Source of the DNA: Collimonas sp. OK607
GTDB lineage: Bacteria; Pseudomonadota; Gammaproteobacteria; Burkholderiales; Burkholderiaceae_D
Direction: 5' to 3'
Length of the DNA stretch: 44,143 nucleotides
Assembly: GCF_900111995.1 (NCBI RefSeq)
Contig: NZ_FOKF01000039.1
Coordinates: 1-44,143, forward strand
Positions 7,933 to 42,135 of this stretch are shown here, piece after piece (the first letter of the stretch is position 1; the number at the start of each line of letters is the position of its first letter). Below the pieces are notes generated by a model that made no database searches, was not told the DNA's origin, and saw nothing but the letters and a program-made list of their open reading frames with translations. The translations under genes and the position numbers were made by a program.

Positions 7933-8877
7933 TCACACCGCGAAACCAAACCCCGGCGCCTCATGTGCCGGCAATACCGTCACTGCCACATCCATGGTTT
8001 GCTGCCCGCCGCCAATCAGCACGCCGCGCAAGGGCGAGACGTCGAGAAAATCGCGGCCCCAGCCGAGCGTGATGTGGCTGGTGTCCGGAAAGATGCCATT
8101 GGTCGGATCGGCATCTATCCAACTGCTGGGCTGGCCATCGAGGCTCGGGCAATATATCGATACCCAGGCATGCGAAGCGTCGGCGCCGATCAAGCGCGGC
8201 TGTCCCGGCGGTGGTTCGGTCAGCAGATAACCGCTGACATAGCGCGCCGCCAAACCCATTGAGCGCAGGCAGGAAAGCATGAAGTGCGCAAAATCCTGGC
8301 ATACACCGCGTCGGGTAGCAAATACCTCGGTGACCGGCGTTGATACCGTGGTGGCCAACGGGTCAAAGGTAAATTCCTGGAAAATCCGCGTCATCAAGGC
8401 TTCTATCCCTGCCAGTAACGGCAATCCGGGCGTAAACGACTCTGCGGCGTAAGCCAGAAGCTCGCGCTTGATCCGCACGTGCGCCGATTCAAACAGGTAG
8501 CGCGTGGCTTCCAGATCGTCGGGTAATAAATATTGGCCGGCGTGATACGAAAGCGCGGCACGTGCCTGCTCCCAGGTCGGCGTGACCGAAGGTAATTGGC
8601 GCGGCGTCAGCGTGACCCAGGATTCGGCCAGCGCGCGCAGATCGGTATGGTCGCTTTCCAACGAAAACGATTGCATCGGATTACCGAAACTATCCAGCAG
8701 CAATCGCAGGTTTTGCGGTTCGGGCGTAATGCTGATACCGTGCGAAGTGCAGGTTTGCCATGGCAGCGAACGCGGCGTCAGGCGCAGCATCTGGTGCGAC
8801 AAGCGCACTGCTTGCGAATACGCATAGTGCGTATCGTGACGAATGTGATAAGTGTAAGAAGGGTGCTCGCTCATCAT
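7933..8877 (-). CDS. Transglutaminase-like cysteine peptidase, cluster A
   Basis: A 314-residue protein with the bacterial transglutaminase N-terminal beta domain (about 9-95) and the transglutaminase-like core. The catalytic triad is visible: C193 in RRGVCQDFAHF, H236 in DASHAWVS and D257 in IDADPTNG. Members act as proteases or amide-bond hydrolases or transferases; there is no signal peptide, so it is cytoplasmic. The ATG at 8877 overlaps the TGA of the ATP-grasp/alpha-E gene (ATGA), showing translational coupling. The plus-strand set has its own copy (20482-21303), so this is a paralogue within one island. The substrate is unknown; a peptide made by the coupled ATP-grasp enzyme is the obvious candidate. 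Confidence 0.93.
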   Translation of the reverse strand: MMSEHPSYTYHIRHDTHYAYSQAVRLSHQMLRLTPRSLPWQTCTSHGISITPEPQNLRLLLDSFGNPMQSFSLESDHTDLRALAESWVTLTPRQLPSVTPTWEQARAALSYHAGQYLLPDDLEATRYLFESAHVRIKRELLAYAAESFTPGLPLLAGIEALMTRIFQEFTFDPLATTVSTPVTEVFATRRGVCQDFAHFMLSCLRSMGLAARYVSGYLLTEPPPGQPRLIGADASHAWVSIYCPSLDGQPSSWIDADPTNGIFPDTSHITLGWGRDFLDVSPLRGVLIGGGQQTMDVAVTVLPAHEAPGFGFAV

Positions 8878-11420
8878 GACACTCCCTGGCTCACCGGTGC
8901 ATTCAGGGGAGTAAAGAAATGCCGGGCCAATTCATCGGACAAGGAAAAAGCGCCGGTGATCGCATCGCGCATCAGTTGCACCAGACGCGCATGTGCATCT
9001 GCCACAAACAAGGAATCGTGGCTTAAGTCCTGTAATTCAAATTCACGCAGCAAGGCTGATAAATGCGCCGGCGTATCCATGTTGAGGGTGCCGAGTTGTT
9101 CAGCGATATCGCTCAGATAGCGCTCCAGCATATGGAACTGGAATGCGATGCCATGCGGATTACTGACGTCGAACACCAGCAGATGCAACACCGGCAGCCA
9201 TTCCGGCGCCCGTCGATAGCGCACGCGATAAGTGACTACGCTGTTGGCTGACTCCAGCAGCCACGGCAAGGTCTTGTTCTGGCGCTCTGCCGGCAACTGC
9301 AGGAACTGGCCGAACAAGGTCGCCAGATGCGTCATGCGTTCTATGTGCCGGCCCAGCATCAGGAAATGCCAGCCTTCGTCGCGCGTCATGTCGTCTAGCG
9401 CGTGTCCGGCCAGGCCCACGCACGCCTGGATCACGTTGTTCAGTATGGTCAATGCGCCGCTAGGTGTCGCACCGGTGTGAGCGCCGCTGTCTGCCGTCAG
9501 GCCTGGCATGCGATTAAGCGCTTGCCAGTTATCCAGCGAGAGGTGTTCGCGCACTTGGTAACCGCAATGATGCAAATGACGCAGATTGGCGGCGATGCTG
9601 ACGCTCGCGGTGGGATCGACGATGGCAGCAATCAGGCCTAGCTGCATGGCGTTGACGGTTGGCCGCCCTGCTGTCGTGGCGCTCGGCAGAGTAATCCCGA
9701 GGCCTCGGCAGATTTCACAGAGCTGGTAAAAAGTCTCGCGCGCTTCACCCTGCAGATCGGTGCTGCGTTGCAGGGTCGCCCTGAGCAGATGCGCCAGGTT
9801 GTCGCAGCGCTCGGCGTAGCGCCCCATCCAGAACAGGTTTTCGCCGGCATGCGATGAAATATCGACGGTGCTGTAAATCGTATCCAGTGCGCGCTGCCGC
9901 GCATCGATGGCTTCCAGCGGCGCTGCCAATGGTGCGGTCGCTTCACTCACTTCCGGCCGCACCTGACTCAACACCCACACATCTTTACTGGCGCCGCCCT
10001 GCTGCATCGATACCACATCCTTGCGCTGGCGCGGTGCGACCCGCGTCAGGCCGCCCGGCATCACATGGTAGCTGCCGTCGGCAGCGGCGACCACGAATAC
10101 CCGCAAGCTCACCGCGCGGCTCATCAAGCGATATTCGCCGCTGCGCGATAATACCGGCGCCTGCGACAAACGCACCCATTCCTGCGCCACATAGGCATGC
10201 GGCTGGGCCAGCAAACTATCGATCACGCGTTGGCGCGATTGTGCGTTCAGACTGTGGCCATAGACCGGTTGCATGCGCATCGATGGGAACGCCGGCATGA
10301 TCACCAGCTGCTCCAGATTGGCCAAGGTGTAATCCAACGCAGGCTTTTCGCCGCACCACCACGACGCCACCGCCGGCAAGGCCAGCGGCTGGCCCAGCAA
10401 GCGTTCGCAAATGGCCGGCAGAAAGCCGTGCAAGGCGCCGGATTCGAGCACGCCGCTGCCGAGTGAGTTGGCGATCAGCACATTGCCGAGGCGCGCTGCC
10501 TGCACCAGGCCGGGAATCCCGAGGGCTGAGTCGGCGCGCAATTCGAGCGGATCGCAATAATCGTCATCCAGCCGCCGCAGGATCGCATGGACGCGCCGCA
10601 AACCGCTCAGCGTCTTCAGGTACACCATGTCGCCGCGCACCATCAGATCTGCCCCTTCGACCAGCGGAAAGCCCAGGGTATGCGCCAGGAATGCGTGCTC
10701 GGAGTACGTTTCGTTATACGGTCCCGGCGTCAGCAACACCACCAGCGGCGGTTCACCGCCGGCCGGCGCCAGCGTGTTCAGACTATCGTGCAGTGTGTGG
10801 AAAAATTTCAGCAGGGATTGGACATGCATGTCGCGCACCGTATCCGGTAATGCGCGCGACATGATCTGCCGGTTCTGCAAGGCGTAACCGGCACCCGAAG
10901 GTCCCTGGGTACGATCCGACATGACCCACCAATGGCCATCAGGTGAACGCGCCAGGTCGATCGCATACAGGTGCAAATGTATGCCAGCCGGCGGTTCTAT
11001 GCCGCGGCAGGGCCAAAGGTAGCCATGCTGGCCGAATACCAATGCCGGTGGCAGCAACCCTTCCGAAAGCAGTGTTTGGGGGCCGTACAGATCGGCCAGG
11101 ACCGCGTTGAGCAGGCGCGCACGCTGGGTTACTGCTGCGGACAAAGTCTGCCATTCATCGGCGGAGATGATCTGCGGCAACAGATCCAGTTCCCAGGGGC
11201 GGTTGGCGCCTTGCGGATCGGCGTACACATTGTAGGTAACGCCTTCTGCAGCAATCGCTTCGCGCACCTCGCGCGCGCGGCGCCGCAAAATCTCTGGCGA
11301 CAAGCCTTCCAGCTGATCGATCAGCGTACGCCAATGCGGCCGCAGGCGACCGCCGGCTTCAAGCATTTCGTCGTAACGATCCGCTTCTGCGGGGTAACTC
11401 TCAAGTAAGCGCTGGTACAT
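8874..11420 (-). CDS. Circularly permuted ATP-grasp fused to alpha-E domain
   Basis: An 848-residue fusion. Residues about 1-510 form a circularly permuted ATP-grasp domain (DUF404/DUF407 type; note SDRTQGPSGAGYALQNR and LRRLDDDYCDPLELR). From about 518 (SSHAGENLFWMGRYAERCDN) to near the end is an all-helical alpha-E domain. In cluster B the same two units are separate genes. ATP-grasp enzymes ligate a carboxylate to an amine. Where the free copy has VKEVHGAGGYGM, this one has VIMPAFPSMRM, so the Lys and Gly-rich loop are missing and ATP use is doubtful. The ATG at 11420 is chosen over an upstream GTG at 11471; AGGA lies close to it. The gene is translationally coupled to the transglutaminase. 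Confidence 0.9.
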   Translation of the reverse strand: MYQRLLESYPAEADRYDEMLEAGGRLRPHWRTLIDQLEGLSPEILRRRAREVREAIAAEGVTYNVYADPQGANRPWELDLLPQIISADEWQTLSAAVTQRARLLNAVLADLYGPQTLLSEGLLPPALVFGQHGYLWPCRGIEPPAGIHLHLYAIDLARSPDGHWWVMSDRTQGPSGAGYALQNRQIMSRALPDTVRDMHVQSLLKFFHTLHDSLNTLAPAGGEPPLVVLLTPGPYNETYSEHAFLAHTLGFPLVEGADLMVRGDMVYLKTLSGLRRVHAILRRLDDDYCDPLELRADSALGIPGLVQAARLGNVLIANSLGSGVLESGALHGFLPAICERLLGQPLALPAVASWWCGEKPALDYTLANLEQLVIMPAFPSMRMQPVYGHSLNAQSRQRVIDSLLAQPHAYVAQEWVRLSQAPVLSRSGEYRLMSRAVSLRVFVVAAADGSYHVMPGGLTRVAPRQRKDVVSMQQGGASKDVWVLSQVRPEVSEATAPLAAPLEAIDARQRALDTIYSTVDISSHAGENLFWMGRYAERCDNLAHLLRATLQRSTDLQGEARETFYQLCEICRGLGITLPSATTAGRPTVNAMQLGLIAAIVDPTASVSIAANLRHLHHCGYQVREHLSLDNWQALNRMPGLTADSGAHTGATPSGALTILNNVIQACVGLAGHALDDMTRDEGWHFLMLGRHIERMTHLATLFGQFLQLPAERQNKTLPWLLESANSVVTYRVRYRRAPEWLPVLHLLVFDVSNPHGIAFQFHMLERYLSDIAEQLGTLNMDTPAHLSALLREFELQDLSHDSLFVADAHARLVQLMRDAITGAFSLSDELARHFFTPLNAPVSQGVS

Positions 11421-11718
11421 AGTCCTAGAGACGGCAGTAGAACGCGCCCGAGTGCGCTTTTGCCGGTGCACGTGGCAAGGCGCGACGACGCGGCAGGGCT
11501 TTCCCTGCTAGGAGGAGCAACGCAGCCAGGTGCGCCGACAAAAGTGCAATCGGGTGCGTAACGTTGCCACCCTGTGGGTGAATCGACAAGGTCCTCATAT
11601 TCACAATGCCCAGACGTCTATCCAAGTACAAACTAGTGGTCTACTGCCGTTTCTAGGACAATCGATCGCTTGCGTCACCTGGAACAGTTTAAATGCAAGA
11701 TCAGCCGCCAGCGCGTCC

Positions 11719-11762
11719 AAAAGCTGTAGCGCAACCAGGAAATAGTTGCGTTACAGCTTTTT
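11719..11762 (-). terminator. Long hairpin terminator of the DUF2126 gene
   Basis: A 17-bp stem with one G-U (aaaagctgtagcgcaac at 11719-11735 with 11745-11761) and a 9-base loop, flanked by A and T runs on both sides. It lies 23 bases past the stop of the minus-strand transglutaminase/DUF2126 gene. The rest of the 364-base gap (11421-11784) shows no gene I can support; it probably also holds the promoter of the ATP-grasp/alpha-E operon. Confidence 0.85.
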
Positions 11763-11784
11763 CGACCATGCCTGCCGAGCTTGA

Positions 11785-14700
11785 TCAGAAGTGACGTAAG
11801 TCTAACGTAAATGGGAGCTCGATGGATGCTATCGGCATAGTTACCTGCATCTGCCCCGGGGTGTGATTGAGACGGAAATAACGCGCGAGACGCCGGCTTT
11901 CCGCTTCGAAAGCATTGACCGGGAACGTCTCGTAGCTACGCCCGCCCGGATGCACCACGTGATATTGGCAACCGCCCAGGCTGCGACCGTTCCAGGTATC
12001 CACCAGATCGAAGGTCAAGGGCGAATCGATGCCGATGGTCGGATGCAGGGCTGACGGCGGTTGCCAGGCGCGGTACCGCACGCCGCTGACAAACTCGCCG
12101 ACGCGCCCTGTCGGCTGCAAAGGCACGGGCACGCCGTTGCAGGTCAGCACATAGCGATCGGGCGCCATGCCACTGACTTTCACCTGCAACCGTTCGAGCG
12201 AGGAGTCGACGTAACGGGCGTTGCCGCCGGAGCGGCTTTCCTCGCCCAGTACATGCCATGGTTCCAGCGCCGTGCGCAGTTCGAGGGCGATGCCATTGAC
12301 GGCAAAATCGCCGATCTTTGGAAAGCGGAACTCGAAGTGCGGCGCAAACCATTCCGGCTTGAGCGCATACCCGGCCTGCTGCATGTCATCCATCACGTCG
12401 CAGAAATCCTGCCAGATGAAATGCGGCAGCAGGAAACGATCATGCAACTCGGTGCCCCAGCGCACCAGGCGTGGCGGCTTGTATGGCGTTTTCCAAAAGC
12501 GCGCTACCAGCGCCCGCAGCAGCAATTGCTGGGTCAGGCTCATGCGCGCATGCGGCGGCATTTCAAACGCGCGCAATTCCAGCAAACCAAGACGGCCGGT
12601 GCTGCTGTCGGGTGAATACAGTTTGTCGATGCAAAACTCGGCGCGGTGCGTGTTGCCGGTCACGTCGATCAACAGATTGCGCAGCAACCGGTCCACCAGC
12701 CATGGTGCGCAACCGTCAGCGGCGAGTTGCTTATCCATCTCTGTGAACGCCAGTTCCAGCTCGACCACGGCGTCGTTGCGCGCTTCGTCCACGCGCGGCG
12801 CTTGCGAAGTGGGGCCGATGAACATGCCGGAAAACAGATAAGACAACGACGGATGGTTGTGCCAATAACTGATCAGGCTACGCAACAGATCCGGACGCCG
12901 CAGGAATGGCGAGTCGCTGGTGGTGGCGCCGCCCAGCACCAGGTGATTGCCGCCACCGGTGCCGGAGTGATGACCGTCGAGCATGAATTTCTCGGTGGTC
13001 AAACGGGTCTCGCGTGCGACGTCATACAGATAGGTAGTGTTGGCAACCAACTCGCTCCAGCTATGCATGGGCTGGATATTTACTTCGATCACACCAGGGT
13101 CGGGAGTGACGCTGAATTTACCCAGCCGCGGGTCGTTGGGCGGCTCATAACCTTCCATCAACAACGGCTGCTTCAAAGCCTGGGCTGTGGCTTCGATCGC
13201 TGCTACCAACTCCAGATAGTCTTCCAGCCGGGCCAGCGGTGGCATGAACAGATACAGCACACCTTGCCGTACTTCCGCACACAAGGCAGTGCGGGCAATC
13301 TCATCGGCCGACTCGAATGGCGCCGGCGCCGCTTGTGCTTCACTGGCGAAAGCCGAACTATATTTCGGCGCATCTGCAGCGGCTGCCTTATCCTTGCCGG
13401 CGGTAGCAGCCGGCGTCGCAAGCCGATGACGGATTTGCTGTGCAATCGGCAATGGCTGGAAGGCCTGCGTAGGATCGGGCTGATGCACGTAAGGGTAATC
13501 ATCAGTCTTGACCCATGGCTGCGAATCGAGCGGCAGTCGGTAGCCTAACGGCGAATCGCCGGGTAGCAGATAGCAGAACTCACCGCGCAAATACCAGCTA
13601 CCGCTTTTCCACTCGCGTTCATCGTCGCTGCGGGCCAGCGGCAATACGTAGCCGGCAACTTTGCGCAAGCCTTGCGAAAAGACGCGTGCCAGCCTGGCGC
13701 GTTCCTGCTTGTCATCCAGCCGCGCGTCGGACGGATCGACGTTAATCGCCAGACGGCGCTCGCGCCACAAGTAGTAGTAAATATCCTCATAGGCAGCAAA
13801 CACGTGTTGGCGATCCAGCGACAGGCGCGCGGCAACGCCTTGTAAAAAACGTTCTGCGACATTGTCATCGCCGGCTTTCACCTGCGCCCGGGTTTCATCT
13901 GCAATCAATGCTGGCGTGGTCCAGATCGGTTCGCCGTCGCGACGCCAGTAACAATTGAGCGACCAGCGCGGCAACTGTTCGCCCGGGTACCATTTTCCCT
14001 GGCCGAAATGCGGCAAGCCTTGCGCCGCATATTGCTGCCGCAGCCGATGATAGAGTTCAGCCGCCAGCGGTTTCTTGGTAGGGCCCATCGCAGCCGTGTT
14101 CCATTCCTCGCCATCCGGATGATCGAGCGCGACAAAAGTCGGTTCACCGCCCATCGTCAGACGCACATCTAGCGTATCCAGGTCATCGTCGATGGCGTGG
14201 CCCAGTTCTTCAATCTCTTCCCATTGCTGCTCGCTATACGGCTTGGTGACGCGCGGCGATTCCCAGATGCGACGTACGCTCATGGCGTGTTCGAATTCTA
14301 CTTCGCATGGCTCGACCATGCCGCTGACCGGTGCTGCCGACGACGGCTCCGGCGTGCACGACAGCGGGATGTGCCCCTCCCCTGCGAACAAACCGGAGGT
14401 TGGATCGAGACCGATCCATCCGGCGCCGGGCAGGTACACTTCGCACCAGGCGTGCAGGTCGGTGAAATCGGTTTGCGGTCCGGATGGGCCATCCAGCGAT
14501 TTCTGGTCGGCCGTCAGCTGGATCAGGTAACCCGATACGAAACGCGCCGCCAAACCCAGGTAGCGCAGTATCTGCACCAGCAGCCACGACGAATCGCGAC
14601 AGGAACCTGAACCAAGGTCGAGAGTCTGCTCCGGCGTCTGCACTCCCGGTTCCATGCGAATGGTATAGCTGATCATTTGCGCCAGCTGCTGGTTCAGACT

Positions 14701-15138
14701 GACCAGGAAATCCTCTGTGCGTATTCTTTCACGCGGTACCTGATCCAGAAATTTTTGCAGCAACGGCGTCAGCGGCAATTTCTTGCGGTACGGCTCCAGC
14801 TCGTTCTGTAATTCCGGCGCGTAGGAAAACGGCACTTTCTCGGCATACGGTTCAAGAAAAAAATCGAAGGGATTGAGCACCGACATCTCGGCTACCAGAT
14901 CGACTTCGATGCGGAATTCACTGGCCTTTTCCGGAAACACCAGCCGCGCCAGATAGTTGGCCTGTGGGTCTTGCTGCCAGTTGATAAAATGCGGTTCCGG
15001 CAATATCCGCAGCGAATAACTCAGGATCCGGGTGCGGCAATGCGGCGCCGGCCGCAAGCGGATGATTTGGGGTCCCAGGCTGATCGGACGTTCGTAACGA
15101 TAAGTGGTGAGATGATTGAGTGCTACGTGAATTGACAT
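11785..15138 (-). CDS. Transglutaminase fused to DUF2126 (putative amidoligase)
   Basis: A 1117-residue protein. The N-terminal 280 residues are a transglutaminase-like domain (SIHVALNHLTTYRYERPI start) with a triad at C180 (GSGSCRDSSWL), H229 (DLHAWCEVY) and D245 (GLDPTSGL). The remaining roughly 820 residues, from the TKPYSEQQWEEIEELGHAID region, match DUF2126 in layout, with TMGGEPTFVALD, DGHHSGTGGGNHLVLGG and ELRAFEMPPHARM. DUF2126 has been proposed to be a glutamine-synthetase-like amide ligase; that is prediction, not biochemistry. AGAGGAT before the ATG at 15138 supports this start over 15156. It has its own terminator and belongs with the transglutaminase and ATP-grasp/alpha-E genes downstream. 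Confidence 0.9.
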   Translation of the reverse strand: MSIHVALNHLTTYRYERPISLGPQIIRLRPAPHCRTRILSYSLRILPEPHFINWQQDPQANYLARLVFPEKASEFRIEVDLVAEMSVLNPFDFFLEPYAEKVPFSYAPELQNELEPYRKKLPLTPLLQKFLDQVPRERIRTEDFLVSLNQQLAQMISYTIRMEPGVQTPEQTLDLGSGSCRDSSWLLVQILRYLGLAARFVSGYLIQLTADQKSLDGPSGPQTDFTDLHAWCEVYLPGAGWIGLDPTSGLFAGEGHIPLSCTPEPSSAAPVSGMVEPCEVEFEHAMSVRRIWESPRVTKPYSEQQWEEIEELGHAIDDDLDTLDVRLTMGGEPTFVALDHPDGEEWNTAAMGPTKKPLAAELYHRLRQQYAAQGLPHFGQGKWYPGEQLPRWSLNCYWRRDGEPIWTTPALIADETRAQVKAGDDNVAERFLQGVAARLSLDRQHVFAAYEDIYYYLWRERRLAINVDPSDARLDDKQERARLARVFSQGLRKVAGYVLPLARSDDEREWKSGSWYLRGEFCYLLPGDSPLGYRLPLDSQPWVKTDDYPYVHQPDPTQAFQPLPIAQQIRHRLATPAATAGKDKAAAADAPKYSSAFASEAQAAPAPFESADEIARTALCAEVRQGVLYLFMPPLARLEDYLELVAAIEATAQALKQPLLMEGYEPPNDPRLGKFSVTPDPGVIEVNIQPMHSWSELVANTTYLYDVARETRLTTEKFMLDGHHSGTGGGNHLVLGGATTSDSPFLRRPDLLRSLISYWHNHPSLSYLFSGMFIGPTSQAPRVDEARNDAVVELELAFTEMDKQLAADGCAPWLVDRLLRNLLIDVTGNTHRAEFCIDKLYSPDSSTGRLGLLELRAFEMPPHARMSLTQQLLLRALVARFWKTPYKPPRLVRWGTELHDRFLLPHFIWQDFCDVMDDMQQAGYALKPEWFAPHFEFRFPKIGDFAVNGIALELRTALEPWHVLGEESRSGGNARYVDSSLERLQVKVSGMAPDRYVLTCNGVPVPLQPTGRVGEFVSGVRYRAWQPPSALHPTIGIDSPLTFDLVDTWNGRSLGGCQYHVVHPGGRSYETFPVNAFEAESRRLARYFRLNHTPGQMQVTMPIASIELPFTLDLRHF

Positions 15139-15170
15139 GGATATCCTCTGTGGCAATCAATAATTTTTTC

Positions 15171-15296
15171 GTAGGGCGGGCACGCCTTTGTGCCCACGCG
15201 TGAATTCACATCACGTACACGCCTGTTGAGGCACCGCATGGGCGTGCACTCCGGTTATCACGGTCACGCGTGGGCACAAAGGCGTGCCCACCCTAC
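15171..15296. repeat. Palindromic GTAGGG repeat, copy 1 (long form)
   Basis: 33-base inverted arms (15171-15203 and 15264-15296; one mismatch) begin gtagggcgggcacgcc and enclose a 60-base centre. Copy 2 at 22333-22459 has the same arms and a related centre (both contain ctccggttatc), and copy 3 at 42104-42135 is a minimal form. There is no coding potential, so this looks like a non-autonomous mobile repeat. Its right end overlaps the last bases and stop codon of the PHA depolymerase gene, and it may act as terminator for that gene. Confidence 0.9.
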
Positions 15297-16516
15297 TGGT
15301 GGCTGTAAATAAATTCGCGCAAGCGCGGATAGATTTCCTTGTCCCAGCGGTGGCCATTGAATACGCCATAGTGGCCGACACCGGTTTGCACATGATGCGT
15401 CTTCATGTAGGGCCGTATGCCGCTGCACATGTCCTGCGCCGCCACGGTCTGGCCTACTGCGCAGATATCATCCTTCTCCCCCTCTACGGTAAACAATGCG
15501 GTGCGGCGAATCGCCGCCGGTTCTATCGTACGCCCTAATGCCTTCATTTCGCCAAGTGGTAATGCGTGATCCTGGAAAACGCTTTGTACCGTTTCCAGAT
15601 AAAACTCTGCCGCCAGATCCGACATGGCGAAATACTCGGCATAGAAAGTCTTGATGACGTTGGCTTTATCGTCTTCGCCTTCCACCAGATAGTTGTACAG
15701 GTTTTGAAAAGCCTTGAGGTGGCGTTCCAGGTTCATGCTCATGAATGCATTCAGCTGCAGGAAACCGGGATAGACCTGGCGCTGGCTACCGGCGAAACGG
15801 CCGGGAACGGTGCTGACCAGATTGTCTTCGAACCAGGTGATAGGTTTGCTTTTCGCCAGGTGATTGACTGCTGTCGGATTGATGCGGGTATCGATGGGGC
15901 CGGCCATCAAGGTCATGCTGGATGGTTGCGCCGGATGTCGTTCGGCAGCCATCAGCGCTACCGCCGCCAGCGCCGCTACAGTCGGCTGGCAGACCGCCAG
16001 CAGATGCGTGCCGGGGCCGATTTTTTCGATGAAACGGATCAGGTGCGCGACATATTCGTCGAAGCCGAAACGGCCGTCGCTCAAGGCCACGTCGCGCGCA
16101 TTGTGCCAGTCGGTGATATATACGTCATGATCGCGCAGGAGCGTGCTCACGGTGCCGCGCAGCAAGGTGGCGAAATGTCCCGACATCGGTGCCACCACGA
16201 GTACACGCGGCTGCACTACCTTGCTGTCCTTGCGGAAACGCAACAAAGTACAGAATGGTGTCTGTTCGGCCACTTCTTCATGCACCGAAACCGTGCAGCC
16301 ATTCTCCTCCACGCTGTTTATCCCGAATGCGGGGCGCTGATGCGTCAACCGGGTGCAGGAAAACACTTCGCAAGCTGCAGCCAGCTTTCGCAGCGCCAGA
16401 CTGTCGGGCCATCCTTGCCACTTGTAGCCCAACACCGGTGCGGCCATGCCAGCCCACGCGCGCATCGGATCGCTAAGATCCGAATAGCCCTGATATGCCT
16501 GGTAAATTTTAGTCAT
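15293..16516 (-). CDS. phaZ: Intracellular polyhydroxyalkanoate depolymerase
   Basis: A 407-residue alpha/beta hydrolase of the intracellular PHB depolymerase family, which breaks down stored native PHA granules to hydroxyacids. The nucleophile is a cysteine, C176 in LLAVCQPTVAAL (the family uses Cys instead of Ser); the expected Asp and His are seen at D349/D350 (VEGEKDD) and H382 (GVGHYGVFNG). The PHB_depo_C region follows the nucleophile. The TAG stop lies within the terminal GTAGGG of repeat copy 1, so the repeat supplies the stop. The gene is divergent from the GST-like gene across 141 bases. Placement between two transglutaminase/ATP-grasp sets may be coincidence. Confidence 0.93.
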   Translation of the reverse strand: MTKIYQAYQGYSDLSDPMRAWAGMAAPVLGYKWQGWPDSLALRKLAAACEVFSCTRLTHQRPAFGINSVEENGCTVSVHEEVAEQTPFCTLLRFRKDSKVVQPRVLVVAPMSGHFATLLRGTVSTLLRDHDVYITDWHNARDVALSDGRFGFDEYVAHLIRFIEKIGPGTHLLAVCQPTVAALAAVALMAAERHPAQPSSMTLMAGPIDTRINPTAVNHLAKSKPITWFEDNLVSTVPGRFAGSQRQVYPGFLQLNAFMSMNLERHLKAFQNLYNYLVEGEDDKANVIKTFYAEYFAMSDLAAEFYLETVQSVFQDHALPLGEMKALGRTIEPAAIRRTALFTVEGEKDDICAVGQTVAAQDMCSGIRPYMKTHHVQTGVGHYGVFNGHRWDKEIYPRLREFIYSHQ

Positions 16517-16657
16517 GGGACTACCCTGTTATTGGAATGCCGGCAAACACCTCGTCTGCAATATCCATGCCCATATCTCTGGCACGGCCTTTGCTCAGTA
16601 GTTGTCAAACGGTTTGCCAATCACGTCACTTTCGACCCAATACGGAAGAATATTGCC

Positions 16658-17311
16658 ATGCCTAAGACCACATTGAGCATTACCAGTAAAAATTATTCGT
16701 CGTGGTCGTTGCGCGGCTGGCTGATGACGCGGTTTTCCGGCCTTGAATTCCAGGAAAACCCGATCTCGCCGGACGATCCGGATGCACGCGCCGAAATCCT
16801 GCTGCTGTCGTCGTCGATCCTGGTGCCTTGCCTGTATCACGGCAATATCGTGGTGTGGGATACCTTGGCTATCGGTGAATATCTGCACGAGATCCGGCCC
16901 AAGGCCGGGCTGCTGCCGGCGGACCGCGCCGCGCGCGCCCACTGCCGTTCGATCTGCGGCGAAATGCATTCCGGCTTCAGCGCCTTGCGTTCGGCGCTGC
17001 CGATGAACATCAAAGCGCATTTTCCCGACTTCAAGGTGTGGTCACGTGCCGAAGCCGACATCAAACGTATCACCACCATCTGGAAACAATGCCTGGCGAC
17101 CTATGGCGGACCATTCCTGTTTGGCGAACGCTCGATAGCCGATGCCATGTATGCACCGGTGGCGACCCGGTTTTTGACGTACGATGTAAAACTGGATTCC
17201 GTCTGCAGCGCCTATTGCAAACGCATTATTGCAATGCCGGAAATGCAGGAATGGATCAAGGCCGCCAAGCTTGAACCGGACGACATCAATGAACTGGATG
17301 TAGAGTTTTGA
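16658..17311 (+). CDS. Glutathione S-transferase-like protein
   Basis: A 217-residue protein with a thioredoxin-fold N-terminal half (SITSKNYSSWSLRGWL, with the Ser pair typical of the glutathione site, then the SSSILVPCLYHGNIVVWDT region) and an all-helical C-terminal half (GGPFLFGERSIADAMYAPVA, the conserved N-capping motif). GSTs conjugate glutathione or isomerise or reduce substrates; the exact class is not clear. The frame is open for 1 kb upstream opposite phaZ, but the real start is the ATG at 16658, preceded by GGAAGAA. The cupin gene follows after 15 bases, so the two are probably co-transcribed. Confidence 0.88.
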   Translation: MPKTTLSITSKNYSSWSLRGWLMTRFSGLEFQENPISPDDPDARAEILLLSSSILVPCLYHGNIVVWDTLAIGEYLHEIRPKAGLLPADRAARAHCRSICGEMHSGFSALRSALPMNIKAHFPDFKVWSRAEADIKRITTIWKQCLATYGGPFLFGERSIADAMYAPVATRFLTYDVKLDSVCSAYCKRIIAMPEMQEWIKAAKLEPDDINELDVEF

Positions 17312-17326
17312 GAAAGGATAGCTGCG

Positions 17327-17791
17327 ATGGATACAAGCACAGGTACAACTGCCAGCCCGGCTGTGTCGTCGGCCGAATCGTCGGCCACCTCGTTCTCGCA
17401 TGTCCGCGAGGGCGATACTGAATTCGAATCGGGCGGCCTGCGTGATTTTTTCCTGTATCGCGATCTCGGGATTGCCGCCGCCACCGGCGGCCAGGTGGTG
17501 GCGCATCTGGTGAAAGCCAACATGGCGCCCGAAGTAGGTACCGGCTGGCACCGGCACGAAGCTAATTTCCATATTGTCTACATGCTCAAGGGCTGGGCTC
17601 GTTTCATGTACGGCGATAAGGAAACGCTGGTCAAGGCCGGCGACTGCGTGCATCAACGCCCAGGCATAGTGCATTTTTTATTCGACTACTCGGAAGACAT
17701 GGAGTATCTTGAAATCGTCAGCCCGGCGGCATTCACTTCAATCGACATGCCGGCACCGTGCGCCGTCCCGGCGCCGACGCCGTGGACCTGA
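17327..17791 (+). CDS. Single-domain cupin protein
   Basis: A 154-residue protein with a low-complexity Ser/Thr/Ala start (1-22) and one cupin barrel. Metal-binding positions are visible: H75, H77 and H82 in WHRHEANFH, and H116 in PGIVHFLF. Cupins of this size include dioxygenases, isomerases and small-molecule sensors; the sequence does not decide between these. AAAGGA precedes the ATG by nine bases. It follows the GST-like gene. Between its stop and the ATP-grasp gene at 18049 are 257 bases with no supported gene; they probably hold the promoter of the Anbu-linked operon. Confidence 0.82.
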   Translation: MDTSTGTTASPAVSSAESSATSFSHVREGDTEFESGGLRDFFLYRDLGIAAATGGQVVAHLVKANMAPEVGTGWHRHEANFHIVYMLKGWARFMYGDKETLVKAGDCVHQRPGIVHFLFDYSEDMEYLEIVSPAAFTSIDMPAPCAVPAPTPWT

Positions 17792-18048
17792 TCGCGTTGA
17801 GCGGCATTGGACACCAGGTTTTTGCAATCAAAACAACATGGAGGACGCCACCCAGATTACGCAAAATTTGCTAAGAGCTGACCCGGCATTGTCTAAAATA
17901 AAGCCTGTTCAAATTACAACATCACATGTTAATTTTTGAATAATCTTTTACACGAGCCAAAGCTTAAACGTCAGCCAGCAGCGTGCAACAGGCACGCTTC
18001 TTGATAGCTACTTGATAGTTTCCGATCAAACCACAGCAAAGCAAGATC

Positions 18049-19464
18049 ATGGCAAATTTTTTCGATGAAATGTACTCCGATGGCAAATCGTCCGTGCGCC
18101 CGCACTATGACGAATTTTCCAATTGGCTCAACGCTCAGACCGCTGAAACCATCGCCCGCAAGCGCGCCGAAGCCGACCTGATTTTCCGTCGCGTCGGTAT
18201 TACCTTTGCGGTCTATGGCAACGATGCCGGCACCGAACGTCTGATCCCCTTCGACATCATCCCGCGCATCATCCATGCGCAGGAGTGGGCTACACTCGAA
18301 GCCGGCCTGATACAGCGCGTCAAGGCGCTCAACATGTTCATCCATGATATCTATCATGGCCAGAACATCGTCAAGGCTGGCGTGATCCCCGCTGAACAGA
18401 TTTTCCGCAATGCCCAGTATCGCCCGGAAATGCAGGGCATCTCGGTTGCCTCGGATATCTATGCGCATATTGCGGGGGTCGATATCGTACGTGCCGGCCA
18501 GGGTGAATTTTACGTGCTGGAAGATAATCTGCGGGTACCTTCCGGCGTGTCCTACATGCTGGAAAACCGCAAGATGATGATGCGGCTGTTCCCCGAATTA
18601 TTCTTGCGCCACAAGATTGCGCCGGTCGATCACTATCCTGACATGCTGCTGGATAACCTGCGTTCGGTGGCGCCGGTTGGCGTTACCGATCCAACCGTGG
18701 TGGTGATGACACCTGGGATGTATAACTCGGCCTACTTCGAACATGCTTTCCTGGCGCAGCAAATGGGTGTGGAACTGGTTGAAGGCCAGGATCTGTTCGT
18801 CAACGATAACGCGGTCTACATGCGCACCACGCGCGGCCCGAAACGGGTCGACGTGATCTATCGCCGGATCGACGACGATTATCTCGATCCGCTCGCCTTC
18901 CGTCCCGATTCGTCGCTCGGGGTGCCCGGCCTGCTGTCAGTATACCGCGCCGGTAATGTCACGCTGGCCAATGCCATCGGAACCGGTGTCGCCGATGACA
19001 AATCGGTCTATCCGTTCGTACCCGACATGATCCAGTTTTATTTGTCGGAGAAGCCGATCCTGAACAATGTCCCGACTTACCAGTGCCGCAAAAAAGACGA
19101 TTTGCAGTACACCCTGGATAACCTGAAGGACCTGGTCGTCAAGGAAGTGCACGGCGCCGGCGGTTACGGCATGCTGGTCGGACCAGCTTCAACCAAGCAG
19201 GAAATCGAAGATTTCCGCCAGCGCGTGATCGCCAAGCCGGACGGTTATATTTCCCAGCCGACCCTGGCTTTATCGGCTTGCCCGACCTATGTCGAATCCG
19301 GCATCGCGCCGCGCCACCTCGACTTGCGGCCGTTTGTGCTGTCCGGGAAAAAAGTCTCCCTGGTGCGTGGCGGCCTGACCCGCGTCGCCCTCAAGGAAGG
19401 TTCGCTGGTGGTTAATTCTTCCCAAGGCGGCGGCACCAAAGACACCTGGATTCTGGAGAAATAA
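18049..19464 (+). CDS. Circularly permuted ATP-grasp protein (Anbu-linked), cluster B
   Basis: A 471-residue protein of the circularly permuted ATP-grasp type 2 / DUF404-DUF407 family, predicted to join a carboxylate to an amine using ATP. Visible blocks are LEDNLRVPSGVSYMLENR, YRRIDDDYLDPLAFRPDSS and VKEVHGAGGYGMLVGP, with K365 and a Gly-rich loop intact, so it looks active. The C-terminus has LVRGGLTRVA and SSQGGGTKDTW. It is followed after one base by the alpha-E gene, then transglutaminase and Anbu, a conserved neighbourhood in proteobacteria. It is probably the catalytic ligase of this set. The substrate is unknown. Its paralogue at 8874-11420 is fused to alpha-E. Confidence 0.93.
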   Translation: MANFFDEMYSDGKSSVRPHYDEFSNWLNAQTAETIARKRAEADLIFRRVGITFAVYGNDAGTERLIPFDIIPRIIHAQEWATLEAGLIQRVKALNMFIHDIYHGQNIVKAGVIPAEQIFRNAQYRPEMQGISVASDIYAHIAGVDIVRAGQGEFYVLEDNLRVPSGVSYMLENRKMMMRLFPELFLRHKIAPVDHYPDMLLDNLRSVAPVGVTDPTVVVMTPGMYNSAYFEHAFLAQQMGVELVEGQDLFVNDNAVYMRTTRGPKRVDVIYRRIDDDYLDPLAFRPDSSLGVPGLLSVYRAGNVTLANAIGTGVADDKSVYPFVPDMIQFYLSEKPILNNVPTYQCRKKDDLQYTLDNLKDLVVKEVHGAGGYGMLVGPASTKQEIEDFRQRVIAKPDGYISQPTLALSACPTYVESGIAPRHLDLRPFVLSGKKVSLVRGGLTRVALKEGSLVVNSSQGGGTKDTWILEK

Positions 19465-19465
19465 C

Positions 19466-20482
19466 ATGCTCAGTCGCACCGCCGATCATTTATTCTGGAT
19501 GTCCCGCTACACCGAGCGGGCAGAAAACACCGCACGCATGCTGGACGTGCACGTGCAAACCGGGCTGTTGCCGCAATCGGTTGAAGATGCGGAAATAGGC
19601 TGGCGCGCAATCCTTGGCATTTCCGAACTGCAGCAGGCTTTCGATAAAAAATATAGCGTGCTAACGCAAAAAGACGTGATTGATTTCATGGTGCGCGATC
19701 CGAGCAATTCTTCCTCGATCGCATCCTGCCTGAAACAAGCGCGCGAGAACGCCCGCGCGGTGCGCGGCGCGCTGACTACCGAAGCCTGGGAAATCCAGAA
19801 CGCCACCTGGATCAAGATGCAAGGTTACTTGCAGACCGATGCGCTGGAGCGGAATCCGAGCGAATTTTTTGAATGGGTAAAACACCGGTCGCATCTGTCG
19901 CGCGGGGTGACCATCGGCACCATGCTCAAAGACGAAGCGTTTCACTTCGTCCGCCTTGGCACCTTCCTGGAGCGCGCTGACAATACCGCGCGCATCATCG
20001 ATGTCAAATTCCACGGAGCGAAAAAAGGCCAGTACAAGAAAAATCATCAAAACGGCCAGCAACAAAGCACCGAACAGCGGCATGCTGAGGAGCGCAAGGA
20101 TGCGATCGCCGAACCGCAGGTGGATTTCTACTACTGGGCGGCGATTCTGCGTTCGGTGTCCGGTTTTGAAATCTACCGCAAGGTGTACCGCGACGTGATC
20201 ACCCCGGCCCGCGTGGCTGATTTGCTGATCCTGCGGCCGGACATGCCGCGCTCATTGCTGGCCTGCATGACGCAAGTGGTCGGCAATCTGAAACATGTGC
20301 AAAACGACATTTCTGCCGACACCGAGCGTTTTGCCGGAAAGCTGCATGCCGATCTCAAGTTCAGCAGTCTCGACGAGATCCTGGACGCCGGCCTGCATGA
20401 TTACCTGACGCAGTTCTTCGAGCGTATTTTCGAACTCGGCAATCGCATCAGCCGCGATTTCCTGGTGCCTCTCAACACCTGA
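19466..20482 (+). CDS. Alpha-E domain protein
   Basis: A 338-residue all-helical alpha-E (DUF403) protein. The start MLSRTADHLFWMSRYTERAE is the family hallmark and repeats the block inside the fused paralogue (ENLFWMGRYAERCDN). Its biochemical role is not established; it always travels with the ATP-grasp partner and is sometimes fused to it, which implies one complex. Residues about 183-215 are a low-complexity insertion rich in Lys, Gln, Asn and His (KKNHQNGQQQSTEQRHAEE) that splits the domain; the fused paralogue has none at this point. The TGA overlaps the next ATG by one base (TGATG at 20480-20484). Confidence 0.92.
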   Translation: MLSRTADHLFWMSRYTERAENTARMLDVHVQTGLLPQSVEDAEIGWRAILGISELQQAFDKKYSVLTQKDVIDFMVRDPSNSSSIASCLKQARENARAVRGALTTEAWEIQNATWIKMQGYLQTDALERNPSEFFEWVKHRSHLSRGVTIGTMLKDEAFHFVRLGTFLERADNTARIIDVKFHGAKKGQYKKNHQNGQQQSTEQRHAEERKDAIAEPQVDFYYWAAILRSVSGFEIYRKVYRDVITPARVADLLILRPDMPRSLLACMTQVVGNLKHVQNDISADTERFAGKLHADLKFSSLDEILDAGLHDYLTQFFERIFELGNRISRDFLVPLNT

Positions 20483-21303
20483 TGCCTGACATGCTACTGA
20501 CTATCCGGCATGAAACGGTTTATCACTACACCGCAGCGCTGACCTACACGATTCAGCAGCTGCGGCTGACGCCGCGCGCGGAAGTGCAGCAGCGTACCCT
20601 GGCCTGGAATATCCGGAGTTCGGGTACGCGTCATCCTTTCACCGATGCCTTCGGCAATCCAAGCCACACGCTGACCATTACCAGACCGCACCACGAAGTG
20701 CGCATCGTCGCCGAAGGTACGGTCGCGATCGCTCCCTTGCATCTGGGCCGTCTGCCGCAACCGGGCGAATTTTCGCCATTGGTATTTACGGTGCCGACGC
20801 AACTGACGCAGCCCACCGTAGCCGTGATGGATTTTGCGCATCGGCACCTGCAGTCTGGCGCCGGCAACACGCAGCTACTGGACCTGGCGCAAGCCATCTG
20901 TGCGGCCGTGGCCTACCAGAGCGGATCGACTGCAGTGACCACCAGCGCCGACGATGCGCTGGCCCTGGGACAAGGCGTCTGCCAGGATCACGCCCACCTG
21001 TTCCTGGCTTGCTGCCACACGGCAGGCATCCCGGCGCGCTACGTGTCGGGCTATATCGACCCCGGCAACACCAGTCATGCGGAAAGCCATGCCTGGGTGG
21101 ACGTATGGGTAGAGGAACATGACTTTTCCGGCTGGATCAGTATCGATGTGACCCATGCGTGCTTTGCCAGCAATAACTATTGCAGACTGGCAATTGGACG
21201 GGATTACGATTCGGCTGCGCCGGTACGCGGGGTACGGCGCGGTGGCGGCGAGGAAACGTTGACCGTGCAGGTTAATGTTTCTGCGCTGCCATCAGATCAA
21301 TGA
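20482..21303 (+). CDS. Transglutaminase-like cysteine peptidase, cluster B
   Basis: A 273-residue protein with the bacterial transglutaminase N-terminal beta region (about 4-90, LLTIRHETVYHYTAALTYTI) and core. The triad is C167 in GQGVCQDHAHLF, H203 in ESHAWVDVW and D222 in WISIDVTHA; the last differs from the usual DPTNG. There is no signal peptide. It is coupled to alpha-E through a one-base overlap; M4 is an alternative start. It precedes Anbu by 126 bases. It is shorter than and diverged from the copy at 7933-8877, so the two are not a recent duplication. Likely a peptide amidase or protease acting with the ATP-grasp ligase. Confidence 0.93.
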   Translation: MPDMLLTIRHETVYHYTAALTYTIQQLRLTPRAEVQQRTLAWNIRSSGTRHPFTDAFGNPSHTLTITRPHHEVRIVAEGTVAIAPLHLGRLPQPGEFSPLVFTVPTQLTQPTVAVMDFAHRHLQSGAGNTQLLDLAQAICAAVAYQSGSTAVTTSADDALALGQGVCQDHAHLFLACCHTAGIPARYVSGYIDPGNTSHAESHAWVDVWVEEHDFSGWISIDVTHACFASNNYCRLAIGRDYDSAAPVRGVRRGGGEETLTVQVNVSALPSDQ

Positions 21304-21336
21304 GTCAGGGGCTTTAATTCAGGATTAATTCGTGAA

Positions 21337-21360
21337 AGTTTGTTACATGACTAACAAACT
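21337..21360. promoter_or_regulatory. Inverted repeat before the Anbu gene
   Basis: agtttgtta (21337-21345) and taacaaact (21352-21360) form a perfect 9-bp inverted repeat around catgac. It lies 70 bases before the Anbu ATG and 33 bases after the transglutaminase stop. There is no T-run after it, so an operator is more likely than a terminator. This suggests Anbu is controlled separately from the three genes upstream. Confidence 0.4.
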
Positions 21361-21429
21361 GTGGCAATCTGACCAGGATACGGATTTGGCTTACTGTAAA
21401 ATCTCGACTTTGTATTTTTCTCACACATC

Positions 21430-22302
21430 ATGACTTACTGCGTAGCCCTGCGCCTCGATTCCGGCCTGGTTTTTCTTTCCGACTCACGCACCAATGCGGG
21501 AGTCGACCACGTCGCCGTCGCGCGCAAGATGAGCGTGTTCGAAAACCCGGGCGAACGCCTGATGGTCTTCATGACTGCCGGCAACCTGTCTATTTCACAG
21601 TCGATCAAGGAAATCATCGGTGAGCGCGTGAACGCCGCCGGCAAGACCATCTGGACCGCCGACTCGATGTACGAGGCTGCGCAAATTGTCGGCGAGGTAA
21701 TCCGCACCGTGCATGACCGCGAAGCGGCGGCACTGGAAAAATTCGGCATCGATTTCAACGTCAGCATTATCTTCGGCGGCCAGATCAAAGGCGAGCGTTG
21801 CCGCCTGTTCCAGATTTATTCGGCCGGCAATTTCATCGAATCGCACAACGAAAATACCTACTTCCAGATCGGCGAATCCAAATACGGCAAGCCGATACTT
21901 GACCGCGTCATCACGCCTTCCTCATCGCTTGACGAGGCGGCAAAATGTGCGCTGATTTCGATGGACTCGACCCTGCGCTCCAACGTCTCGGTGGGCTTGC
22001 CGCTGGATATGCTGCTGTATGAAAACGATACGCTGGCAGTCACCCGCTTTGTGACGATCGGCGAAAAGAACCAGTACTTCCAGATGATCCGGGAAAACTG
22101 GGGCAAACAACTCAAAAGCGTATTCGACGGCATCGCCGATCCGGTCTGGAATGCCAATCCGGAAACCACCTCCAATGTGCTGTCGGCACAAGGCTCGCGC
22201 AGCGAACCGCTGGTGGTGATGGCGCCGCAAGAACTGAGCACCGAGAGCCCGCCGCCGCCGCTGCAAACGCTGGCACAGGGAGCCAACGGCAAGCAGCATT
22301 AA
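21430..22302 (+). CDS. Anbu, proteasome-like peptidase
   Basis: A 290-residue Ntn-hydrolase of the Anbu (ancestral beta subunit) group, related to HslV and proteasome beta subunits. Removing the initiator Met exposes Thr as residue 1 (TYCVALRLDSGLVFLSD). With Thr as 1, D17 (LSDSRTNAG) and K32 (ARKM) fit the catalytic set. GGQIKGERCRLFQIYSAGNF and STLRSNVSVGLPLDML are further family-like blocks. The last 50 or so residues are Pro/Ser-rich and probably disordered. Anbu is found next to ATP-grasp, alpha-E and transglutaminase genes, as here; its natural substrate is not known to me. It has its own 126-base upstream region with an inverted repeat. The copy-2 repeat lies just after its stop. Confidence 0.92.
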   Translation: MTYCVALRLDSGLVFLSDSRTNAGVDHVAVARKMSVFENPGERLMVFMTAGNLSISQSIKEIIGERVNAAGKTIWTADSMYEAAQIVGEVIRTVHDREAAALEKFGIDFNVSIIFGGQIKGERCRLFQIYSAGNFIESHNENTYFQIGESKYGKPILDRVITPSSSLDEAAKCALISMDSTLRSNVSVGLPLDMLLYENDTLAVTRFVTIGEKNQYFQMIRENWGKQLKSVFDGIADPVWNANPETTSNVLSAQGSRSEPLVVMAPQELSTESPPPPLQTLAQGANGKQH

Positions 22303-22332: not shown

Positions 22333-22459
22333 GTAGGGTGGGCACGCTTTTGTGCCCACGCGTGAACTCACTCCACGCACATGCCTATTTCCGTGCCACT
22401 TGGGTCCGTACTCCGGTTATCGCGGTCACGCGTGGGCACAAAAGCGTGCCCACCCTACG
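22333..22459. repeat. Palindromic GTAGGG repeat, copy 2 (long form)
   Basis: Perfect 33-base inverted arms (22333-22365 and 22427-22459) start gtagggtgggcacgc and enclose a 61-base centre. It sits between the convergent ends of the Anbu and panB genes and could terminate both. The arms match copy 1 at 15171-15296 almost base for base, and the centre is partly alike. Confidence 0.92.
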
Positions 22460-41741: not shown

Positions 41742-42107
41742 GTGTCCAAAAACGACGCAATCATCGACTATATCCGCGAGCTGCTGGCGTCGCTTGGCGC
41801 TATTAGCGCCCGCAGGATGTTTGGCGGCCATGGCATTTACTACGATAGCGTGATGATCGCTCTGGTTGCCGATGGCGCCCTGTTTCTCAAGACTGATGAG
41901 GAAACCCGGCCGCAATTCGCGGCTGCCGGTTGCCGGCCTTTCGTCACCGAAAGCAGAGGGAAGTCGATTGAAACGAGCTATTGGTCGGCGCCTGAAGACG
42001 CCATGGATGCCGCAGCTGCGATGACGCCGTGGGCGCGGCTTGCTTATGCGGCTGCGGTGCGTAAGGCCAACGCCAAGCTGGCGCCTAAACCCCGCAAACG
42101 CTCGTAG
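41742..42107 (+). CDS. TfoX N-terminal domain protein
   Basis: A 121-residue single-domain protein (about 10-100: IRELLASLGAISARRMFGGH, ALVADGALFLKTDEE, SYWSAPEDAMD). The domain is shared with the competence regulator TfoX/Sxy, but the C-terminal Sxy half is absent, so a role in competence is not implied. The start is GTG, 17 bases after hrcA. The TAG stop is formed by the GTAGGG end of repeat copy 3, so the native C-terminus (PKPRKRS) may have been cut or altered. Confidence 0.87.
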   Translation: MSKNDAIIDYIRELLASLGAISARRMFGGHGIYYDSVMIALVADGALFLKTDEETRPQFAAAGCRPFVTESRGKSIETSYWSAPEDAMDAAAAMTPWARLAYAAAVRKANAKLAPKPRKRS

Positions 42108-42135
42108 GGTGGGCACGCCTTTGTGCCCACCCTAC
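42104..42135. repeat. Palindromic GTAGGG repeat, copy 3 (short form)
   Basis: gtagggtgggcac (42104-42116) and gtgcccaccctac (42123-42135) form a perfect 13-bp inverted repeat around gccttt. It corresponds to the outer arms of copies 1 and 2 without the centre. It lies between the convergent TfoX-domain and fur genes and provides the former's stop codon. Confidence 0.9.

Follow-up and report, generated by a model that had tools for sequence, protein, structure and literature searches.

The window analyzed here is a stretch of 44,143 nucleotides from Collimonas sp. OK607 (assembly GCF_900111995.1, contig NZ_FOKF01000039.1), and positions are window coordinates unless a locus is named. It contains six genes of three families, ATP-grasp, alpha-E, and transglutaminase-like (TGase), together with a gene for Anbu, in two opposed units identified by Pfam and PDB sequence matches. 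On the minus strand, phaZ (15293–16516; polyhydroxyalkanoate depolymerase; TIGR01849, 519 bits; PF06850) heads a unit in which it is followed by set A: a gene combining TGase and DUF2126 in a single frame (11785–15156; PF09899, 1352 bits), whose probable start, judged by eye, is the internal ATG at 15138; a gene combining CP_ATPgrasp_2 and Alpha-E in a single frame (8874–11471; 865 residues), predicted to encode a dead ATP-grasp; and a papain-fold TGase-like gene (7933–8877; 314 residues; PF08379 and PF01841). On the plus strand, genes for a glutathione S-transferase-like protein (GST; 16658–17311; PF13409) and a cupin-domain protein (17327–17791; PF07883) precede set B (18049–22302), which consists of a stand-alone CP_ATPgrasp (18049–19464; Pfam, and 783 bits to PDB 3n6x), a stand-alone Alpha-E (19466–20482; PF04168, 326 bits), a TGase-like protein (20482–21303; Pfam), and Anbu, a proteasome-like Ntn hydrolase (21430–22302). 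The Pfam assignments of the named family genes were all above cut-off. The Anbu product matched five PDB sequences named Anbu, designed Anbu, or peptidase (E 2.7e-89 to 2.3e-64) and the general Proteasome Pfam model with 24 bits only. NCBIfam gave no match for the seven family proteins, nor did PHROGs for five of the seven family proteins searched. These assignments confirm the gene content given in an earlier note on this DNA, with six genes of three families divergent around phaZ, GST, and cupin, fused ATP-grasp/alpha-E and TGase-DUF2126 proteins in one set, and separate genes with Anbu in the other.

The 141-base pair (bp) gap between the starts of phaZ and GST (16517–16657) holds back-to-back sigma54-type promoters; these two genes and cupin separate set A from set B. 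A site scan located an exact consensus sequence, TGGCACGGCCTTTGCT, on the plus strand (16580–16595), 62 bp before the start of GST and thus at the head of the set B unit. On the minus strand (16557–16572), the sequence GGGCATGGATATTGCA, which has two mismatches with the GG and GC elements intact, lies 40 bp before phaZ and faces set A. Both sequences are identical, in a longer gap, in a 19.9-kb stretch of a genome of the same genus (L006), the gene order of which is also identical to that of the window. In Herbaspirillum frisingense (L063), two sites likewise face apart, an exact one toward GST at a distance of 145 bp and one with a single mismatch toward phaZ at 54 bp. The genome of the window contains 12 exact sigma54 sites in 5.37 Mb, versus 2 for the reversed pattern, and several of the others precede genes that resemble, by eye and with no family search, those for pilin, nitrate transport, and prpB. 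A further sigma54-like site at position 17990, AGGCACGcttcTTGAT, just before the ATP-grasp gene of set B, was discounted, the GC of the –12 element being absent. Two NtrC-like palindromes lie inside phaZ, 220 to 300 bp from the set B promoter: one (16281–16297), with a single mismatch to TGCACCN5GGTGCA, is the sole window site with one mismatch or less, and the other (16341–16357) is among five window sites with two or fewer.

Promoters and gene arrangements were then compared across 141 annotated loci, comprising the window, 60 stretches from a sample of its order (48 around DUF2126, excluding the window and a weak match in genome G136, and 12 selected from the remaining Anbu sites), and 80 named contigs that gave the top matches among at least 592 to DUF2126. 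The loci were chosen for these genes, and the counts describe arrangements rather than natural frequencies. A sigma54 site with at most two mismatches was present within 170 bp upstream of 61 of the 85 units beginning with TGase-DUF2126 and 46 of the 67 beginning with ATP-grasp, versus 19 of 724 control genes, which were other genes of at least 250 codons in the same loci. The former count is inflated by 15 identical sites in Pseudomonas contigs, the distinct site sequences numbering 39 for the TGase-DUF2126-first units and 43 for the ATP-grasp-first units. Three of 11 fusion-first units had a site. Among the 30 loci in which both units were present and separate, sites preceded both in 15, one in 9, and neither in 6. 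The window, L006, and L063 belong to the last group, their sites being located another one or two genes upstream. NtrC-like palindromes with at most two mismatches were found within 250 bp upstream of 24 of 107 sigma54 sites, versus 112 of 4230 random places.

Published expression data bear on the same question in relatives. In Burkholderia cenocepacia H111, I35_5080–5083, encoding ATP-grasp, alpha-E, TGase, and a large TGase, are common targets of NtrC and sigma54, with expression 6.0- to 9.4-fold lower in an ntrC mutant (PMC5491218). In Pseudomonas putida, PP_2685 and PP_2688 were more expressed on nitrate than on ammonium, with log2 values of 4.44 and 3.99, or about 22- and 16-fold (PMC8050072), PP2685–2687 increased under nitrogen limitation (PMC3325844), and PP_2686–2688 were induced 11- to 15-fold (PMC7801951). 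A 2025 sigma54 survey listed COG3484, a proteasome-type protease, among the sigma54-linked families of proteobacteria (PMC12316311), and in marine metagenomes these domains were reported to correlate with urea metabolism. Together, the sites and the published data on relatives suggest a single nitrogen-starvation regulon.

The ATP-grasp domains of the two sets differ in their catalytic residues. In a comparison of 99 fused and 72 stand-alone homologues, E158 and N160 of the E-x-N motif were each present in 72/72 stand-alone and 0/99 fused proteins, and N160 was replaced by Arg in 98 of the latter. The fused form has also lost R162, the glycine-rich GGYG loop, the positions of which are kept in 71 or 72 of the 72 stand-alone proteins, H423, D425, and N456. 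We take E-x-N and the other lost residues to function in metal and ATP binding, as in glutathionylspermidine synthetase. A Lys on the side of the loop is kept in 76 of the 99 fused homologues, although not in the fused protein of the window. The stand-alone protein of the window has the conserved motif residues. Of 105 polar or Gly positions conserved in at least 90% of the stand-alone proteins, 29 are kept in less than 10% of the fused proteins and 46 in more than 90%. On these substitutions, the fused ATP-grasp is probably a pseudoenzyme; the many other residues that are kept make it probable that the protein folds and is under selection. The Cys-His-Asp triad is present in all three TGase proteins of the window, in 96/96 homologues of the set A TGase, and in 124/125 homologues of the DUF2126-fused TGase, with one gap; among 20 homologues of the set B type, Cys was present in 16, His in 18, and Asp in 19. 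The Thr (N-terminal, after Met), Asp, and Lys residues of Anbu are present in the window and in 48/48 homologues.

In a midpoint-rooted tree, the root of which is thus assumed, the 99 fused ATP-grasps formed one clade with a support of 1.0 and the 72 stand-alone proteins grouped with a low support of 0.325; the TGase types were not cleanly separated. The two ATP-grasps of the window are 36% identical, and this divergence and the separate clade of the fused forms lead us to reject a recent duplication of one set. Fused and stand-alone alpha-E proteins were told apart in genomes by score and frame length, the tables being read by eye. All 26 genomes of the order with a fused frame also had stand-alone alpha-E and DUF2126, not counting G144, in which the frame is cut and DUF2126 gave no match. 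In the phylum, among the matches listed, 37/37 genomes with a fused frame had stand-alone alpha-E and 36/37 had DUF2126. Long, high-scoring alpha-E frames in five genomes (G102, G027, G206, G311, and G183) were rejected as further fusions, since each is overlapped by a distinct frame that encodes the ATP-grasp. To call the two sets parallel, as the earlier note does, is misleading: motifs kept by the stand-alone ATP-grasp are missing from the fused one, and set A carries two TGase domains.

The gene arrangements connect the two sets. In 18 of the 141 loci, stand-alone ATP-grasp, alpha-E, Anbu, and TGase-DUF2126 are on a single strand, in 16 of them with gaps of less than 140 bp between frames; TGase-DUF2126 is there collinear with the Anbu operon and substitutes for the plain TGase. 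The four genes are consecutive in 14 loci and appear in other orientations in two further loci; all 20 loci lack the fusion in view. The sets interlock: TGase-DUF2126 exchanges into Anbu operons. Other loci combine the families differently. ATP-grasp, alpha-E, TGase-DUF2126, fusion, and TGase were found together in 13 loci, and 11 had a divergent form resembling that of the window without Anbu or the set B TGase in view. The full divergent form with Anbu was found in the window and L006, and in L063 minus the set B TGase. In 42 of the 141 loci, only TGase-DUF2126, fusion, and TGase were in view. Stand-alone ATP-grasp was in view in 44 of the 97 loci with the fusion. In Burkholderia sp. TSV86 (L102), both sets are in a single direction with no Anbu in view, a layout that resembles, and is taken as the same as, the NtrC-controlled cluster of B. 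cenocepacia.

Folds were predicted for alpha-E and DUF2126. Alpha-E of set B gave a confident all-helical AlphaFold2 model, with a predicted local distance difference test (pLDDT) score of 91.8, and a Foldseek comparison of this model with the PDB gave no relative at or below E 0.001. The DUF2126 model had a pLDDT of 72.7, and 35 of its 50 listed Foldseek matches were glutamine synthetases or YbdK-type ligases, with a best E of 0.089. This predicted fold is consistent with the amidoligase prediction in the Pfam name, without being a proof of it.

We propose that the two sets constitute a single nitrogen-starvation module with two promoters, in which amide bonds are made and broken under NtrC induction for nitrogen salvage, an account that we hold with belief and doubt about evenly balanced. 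Under nitrogen scarcity, NtrC and sigma54 RNA polymerase would activate the two divergent promoters in the phaZ–GST gap, as the sites, their conservation, and expression in relatives lead us to infer. The leftward message would cover phaZ, TGase-DUF2126, the ATP-grasp/alpha-E fusion, and TGase, and the rightward message GST, cupin, ATP-grasp, alpha-E, TGase, and Anbu; polycistronic messages are assumed because the sites of the window stand before phaZ and GST. The working core would be the stand-alone ATP-grasp, which may use ATP to activate a carboxylate for coupling to an amine, and alpha-E, which may present the substrate. DUF2126 could provide a second ligase, of the glutamine synthetase type, with the TGase domain as a thiol amidase attached to it, a role to which the modeled fold of DUF2126 lends slight support. 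Since the fused ATP-grasp/alpha-E protein was found, in the genomes seen, only where the stand-alone form is present, it would be a pseudoenzyme partner with a likely role as scaffold or regulator of the active pair. TGases and Anbu would form the bond-breaking side. The net effect would be that amine- or peptide-linked compounds are conjugated and then broken, with recovery of nitrogen.

Several observations weigh against this proposal. With respect to promoters, 24 of the 85 TGase-DUF2126-first units and 21 of the 67 ATP-grasp-first units have no sigma54 site, and only 2 of 16 Anbu-first units have one. In the window, no site stands directly before TGase-DUF2126 or ATP-grasp, the sites preceding phaZ and GST, and the plus-strand site of L006 is 327 bp before GST. 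Sigma54-like matches in the window are at chance, with 1 versus 1.69 expected at one mismatch or less and 19 versus 18.98 at two or less; the weight is carried by the exact site, its position, its conservation, and the survey, not by site counts in the window. The NtrC-like palindromes are within phaZ, downstream of the set A promoter, and a pair of opposed palindromic elements of the repetitive extragenic palindrome (REP) kind between phaZ and TGase-DUF2126 (15171–15296) might uncouple the two. Anbu is in view in only 12 of the 97 fusion loci, and the fold matches of DUF2126 are all above E 0.001. With respect to published data, PP_2685 (Anbu) changed only 1.12-fold in wild-type P. putida, and PP_2686–2688 were still induced 14- to 20-fold in an rpoN mutant, as was urtA, 11-fold (PMC7801951). 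The published expression agrees for the most part with nitrogen control, the data coming from relatives and one set being in conflict. In Yersinia, Anbu is reported to have shown neither peptidase activity nor specific binding to its operon partners.

Co-occurrence was determined in 150 genomes of the order and 200 of the phylum, some genomes being in both samples; draft assemblies were scored as misses, and the statistics ignore relatedness. DUF2126, Anbu, and alpha-E were found in 50, 76, and 81 genomes of the order, with DUF2126 and Anbu together in 45, and in 63, 69, and 112 genomes of the phylum, with both markers in 35. Over all genomes, DUF2126 and Anbu were positively associated (Fisher p 2e-12 in the order and 5e-5 in the phylum). 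Against a single module, Anbu occurred without DUF2126 in 31/76 and 34/69 genomes and DUF2126 without Anbu in 5/50 and 28/63, in the order and phylum, respectively, and the positive association was absent among genomes with alpha-E (p 0.40 and 0.24). DUF2126 was never found without alpha-E (0/50 and 0/63), and Anbu was rarely so (1/76 and 1/69). ATP-grasp/alpha-E hence looks like a core to which DUF2126 and Anbu are add-ons, because the association vanishes among alpha-E genomes and because DUF2126 never, and Anbu rarely, occurs without alpha-E. The proposal of the earlier note that the two sets belong to one system, to be checked by co-occurrence, was thus borne out in part: of the 81 genomes of the order with DUF2126 or Anbu, 45 have both, versus 35 of 97 in the phylum, and the association does not extend to alpha-E genomes. 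The coupling itself is upheld by the divergent sigma54-type region of the window, by the sigma54 and NtrC signals elsewhere, and by the 18 loci with TGase-DUF2126 beside Anbu operons.

The absence of a positive association among alpha-E genomes and the 42 loci showing only set A genes would both be accounted for by two independent pathways with different substrates that merely have nitrogen control and, here, a promoter region in common. We consider this unlikely on account of the replacement of the plain TGase by TGase-DUF2126 in line with Anbu operons and of the presence of stand-alone alpha-E in all 26 genomes of the order with a fused frame. A peptide-tagging system, in which proteins or metabolites would receive a peptide or amino-acid tag from the ligases and lose it again through TGases and Anbu, in the manner of deubiquitinases, was proposed earlier for these families (Iyer 2009, as quoted by later papers) and, in outline, in the earlier note. 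It would explain the occurrence of ligases and hydrolases together and is in line with the reported release of phosphate from ATP by the ATP-grasp of the Yersinia operon. We find it doubtful, given that 28 of the 63 DUF2126 genomes of the phylum have no Anbu and that no specific interaction was reported among the Yersinia operon proteins. Protein turnover under nitrogen starvation, with Anbu as the protease and the ligases only marking or processing the products, is favored by the nitrogen induction of Anbu operon genes in P. putida (PMC8050072 and PMC3325844) and by the preference of Fuchs et al., who report inhibitor binding at Thr1, for degradation, and is improbable in view of the scarcity of Anbu in fusion loci and of the reported lack of detectable peptidase or amidase activity for the tested Anbu proteins. 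The single nitrogen-starvation module remains our preferred reading.

Other genes and features were examined around the families. GST, cupin, and phaZ are weak candidates for general partners, a tblastn search of the loci having placed all three with the families only in the window, L006, L028, L063, and L114; L023 had a partial phaZ only, and L148 is the window itself. An open frame of 581 codons (15566–17311, plus strand) crosses phaZ in antisense orientation and shares its end with the GST frame; the GST gene itself starts at 16658. A RidA-family gene directly follows the set A TGase on the same strand in 11 of 14 RidA matches (e.g. L134, 16260–16733); in P. putida, PP2689, of endoribonuclease type, adjoins the Anbu operon by locus number (PMC3325844). 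For Peptidase_Mx (PF15887, putative zinc metallopeptidase), all 9 matches are no more than 300 bp from a family gene (e.g. L091, 5643–6737), four of them on the same strand. Both neighbors fit amine and peptide catabolism, but in few loci. A protein of about 414 residues, encoded by an open frame beside the families in L026 (11324–12565), L003, L019, L032, and L054, had no Pfam match. Two Anbu matches were present in 8 of the 76 Anbu genomes of the order (G023, G060, G090, G114, G115, G128, G131, and G144), and a second Anbu gene lies near the first operon in L019, L028, and L030.

The sets should not be regarded as part of a mobile island, if the word used in the earlier note was so meant: the genes on both sides are of the usual chromosomal kind (two-component system, symporter, panB, HPPK, polyA polymerase, and Hda), no tRNA is found within the window, G+C is 0.556–0.608 across the sets versus 0.499–0.608 across the window with no marked step, and the gene order is kept in L006. 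The genome contains two alpha-E matches, both in the window. The REP-like element has 68 copies with at most two mismatches in the genome, whereas the reversed pattern used as a control has 0. Copies often form opposed pairs spaced by about 95 bp; in the window, a second such pair follows Anbu (22333–22458), and the element also occurs at 42104–42133.

In the open-licence literature searched, neither a back-to-back promoter pair serving both sets nor the exchange of TGase-DUF2126 into Anbu operons was found; the search on an inactive ATP-grasp gave nothing relevant, Iyer et al. 2009 being outside its scope, and reports on retropepsin and inactive transglutaminases were set aside as concerning a different family. 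The families and the Anbu operon were known before, as was, in part, the control of both kinds of operon by nitrogen. A common nitrogen-starvation switch would provide a growth condition in which to seek the product. The dead ATP-grasp would tell which set carries the ATP-grasp chemistry, so that deletion and metabolite work can be aimed. The alpha-E fold, with no relative found in the PDB at the above threshold, suggests a target for structural work on the live/dead pair.

Four known systems can be compared with the locus. Set B, with intact catalytic residues, reproduces the four-gene order of the Anbu operon known from Pseudomonas, Yersinia, and others; here, it follows GST and cupin and would be read from a sigma54 promoter back-to-back with that of set A. 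In the glutathionylspermidine synthetase/amidase system, a circularly permuted ATP-grasp is paired with a thiol amidase. The ATP-grasps are related, the closest PDB chain, 3n6x, being named putative glutathionylspermidine synthase; we know of no counterpart of alpha-E, DUF2126, or Anbu in that system. The actinobacterial Pup-proteasome associates a glutamine-synthetase-like ligase with a proteasome-like hydrolase, a pairing that would be alike here if DUF2126 is such a ligase, although Anbu and DUF2126 are often apart. A proteobacterial counterpart of pupylation for times of nitrogen scarcity, in which the DUF2126 ligase, with the aid of an ATP-grasp/alpha-E complex containing one live and one dead ATP-grasp, would add an amino-acid or peptide mark, TGase domains would edit it, and Anbu, where present, would dismantle the marked material, all under NtrC, is a long shot; no Pup-like protein or AAA unfoldase was seen among the identified neighbors, which represent only some of the neighbor clusters and were not the object of a dedicated search. 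Finally, the I35_5080–5083 genes of B. cenocepacia H111 likewise combine ATP-grasp, alpha-E, TGase, and a large TGase under NtrC and sigma54 (PMC5491218). If their layout is that of L102, they run in a single direction with no Anbu in view, whereas the window has two divergent units with Anbu.

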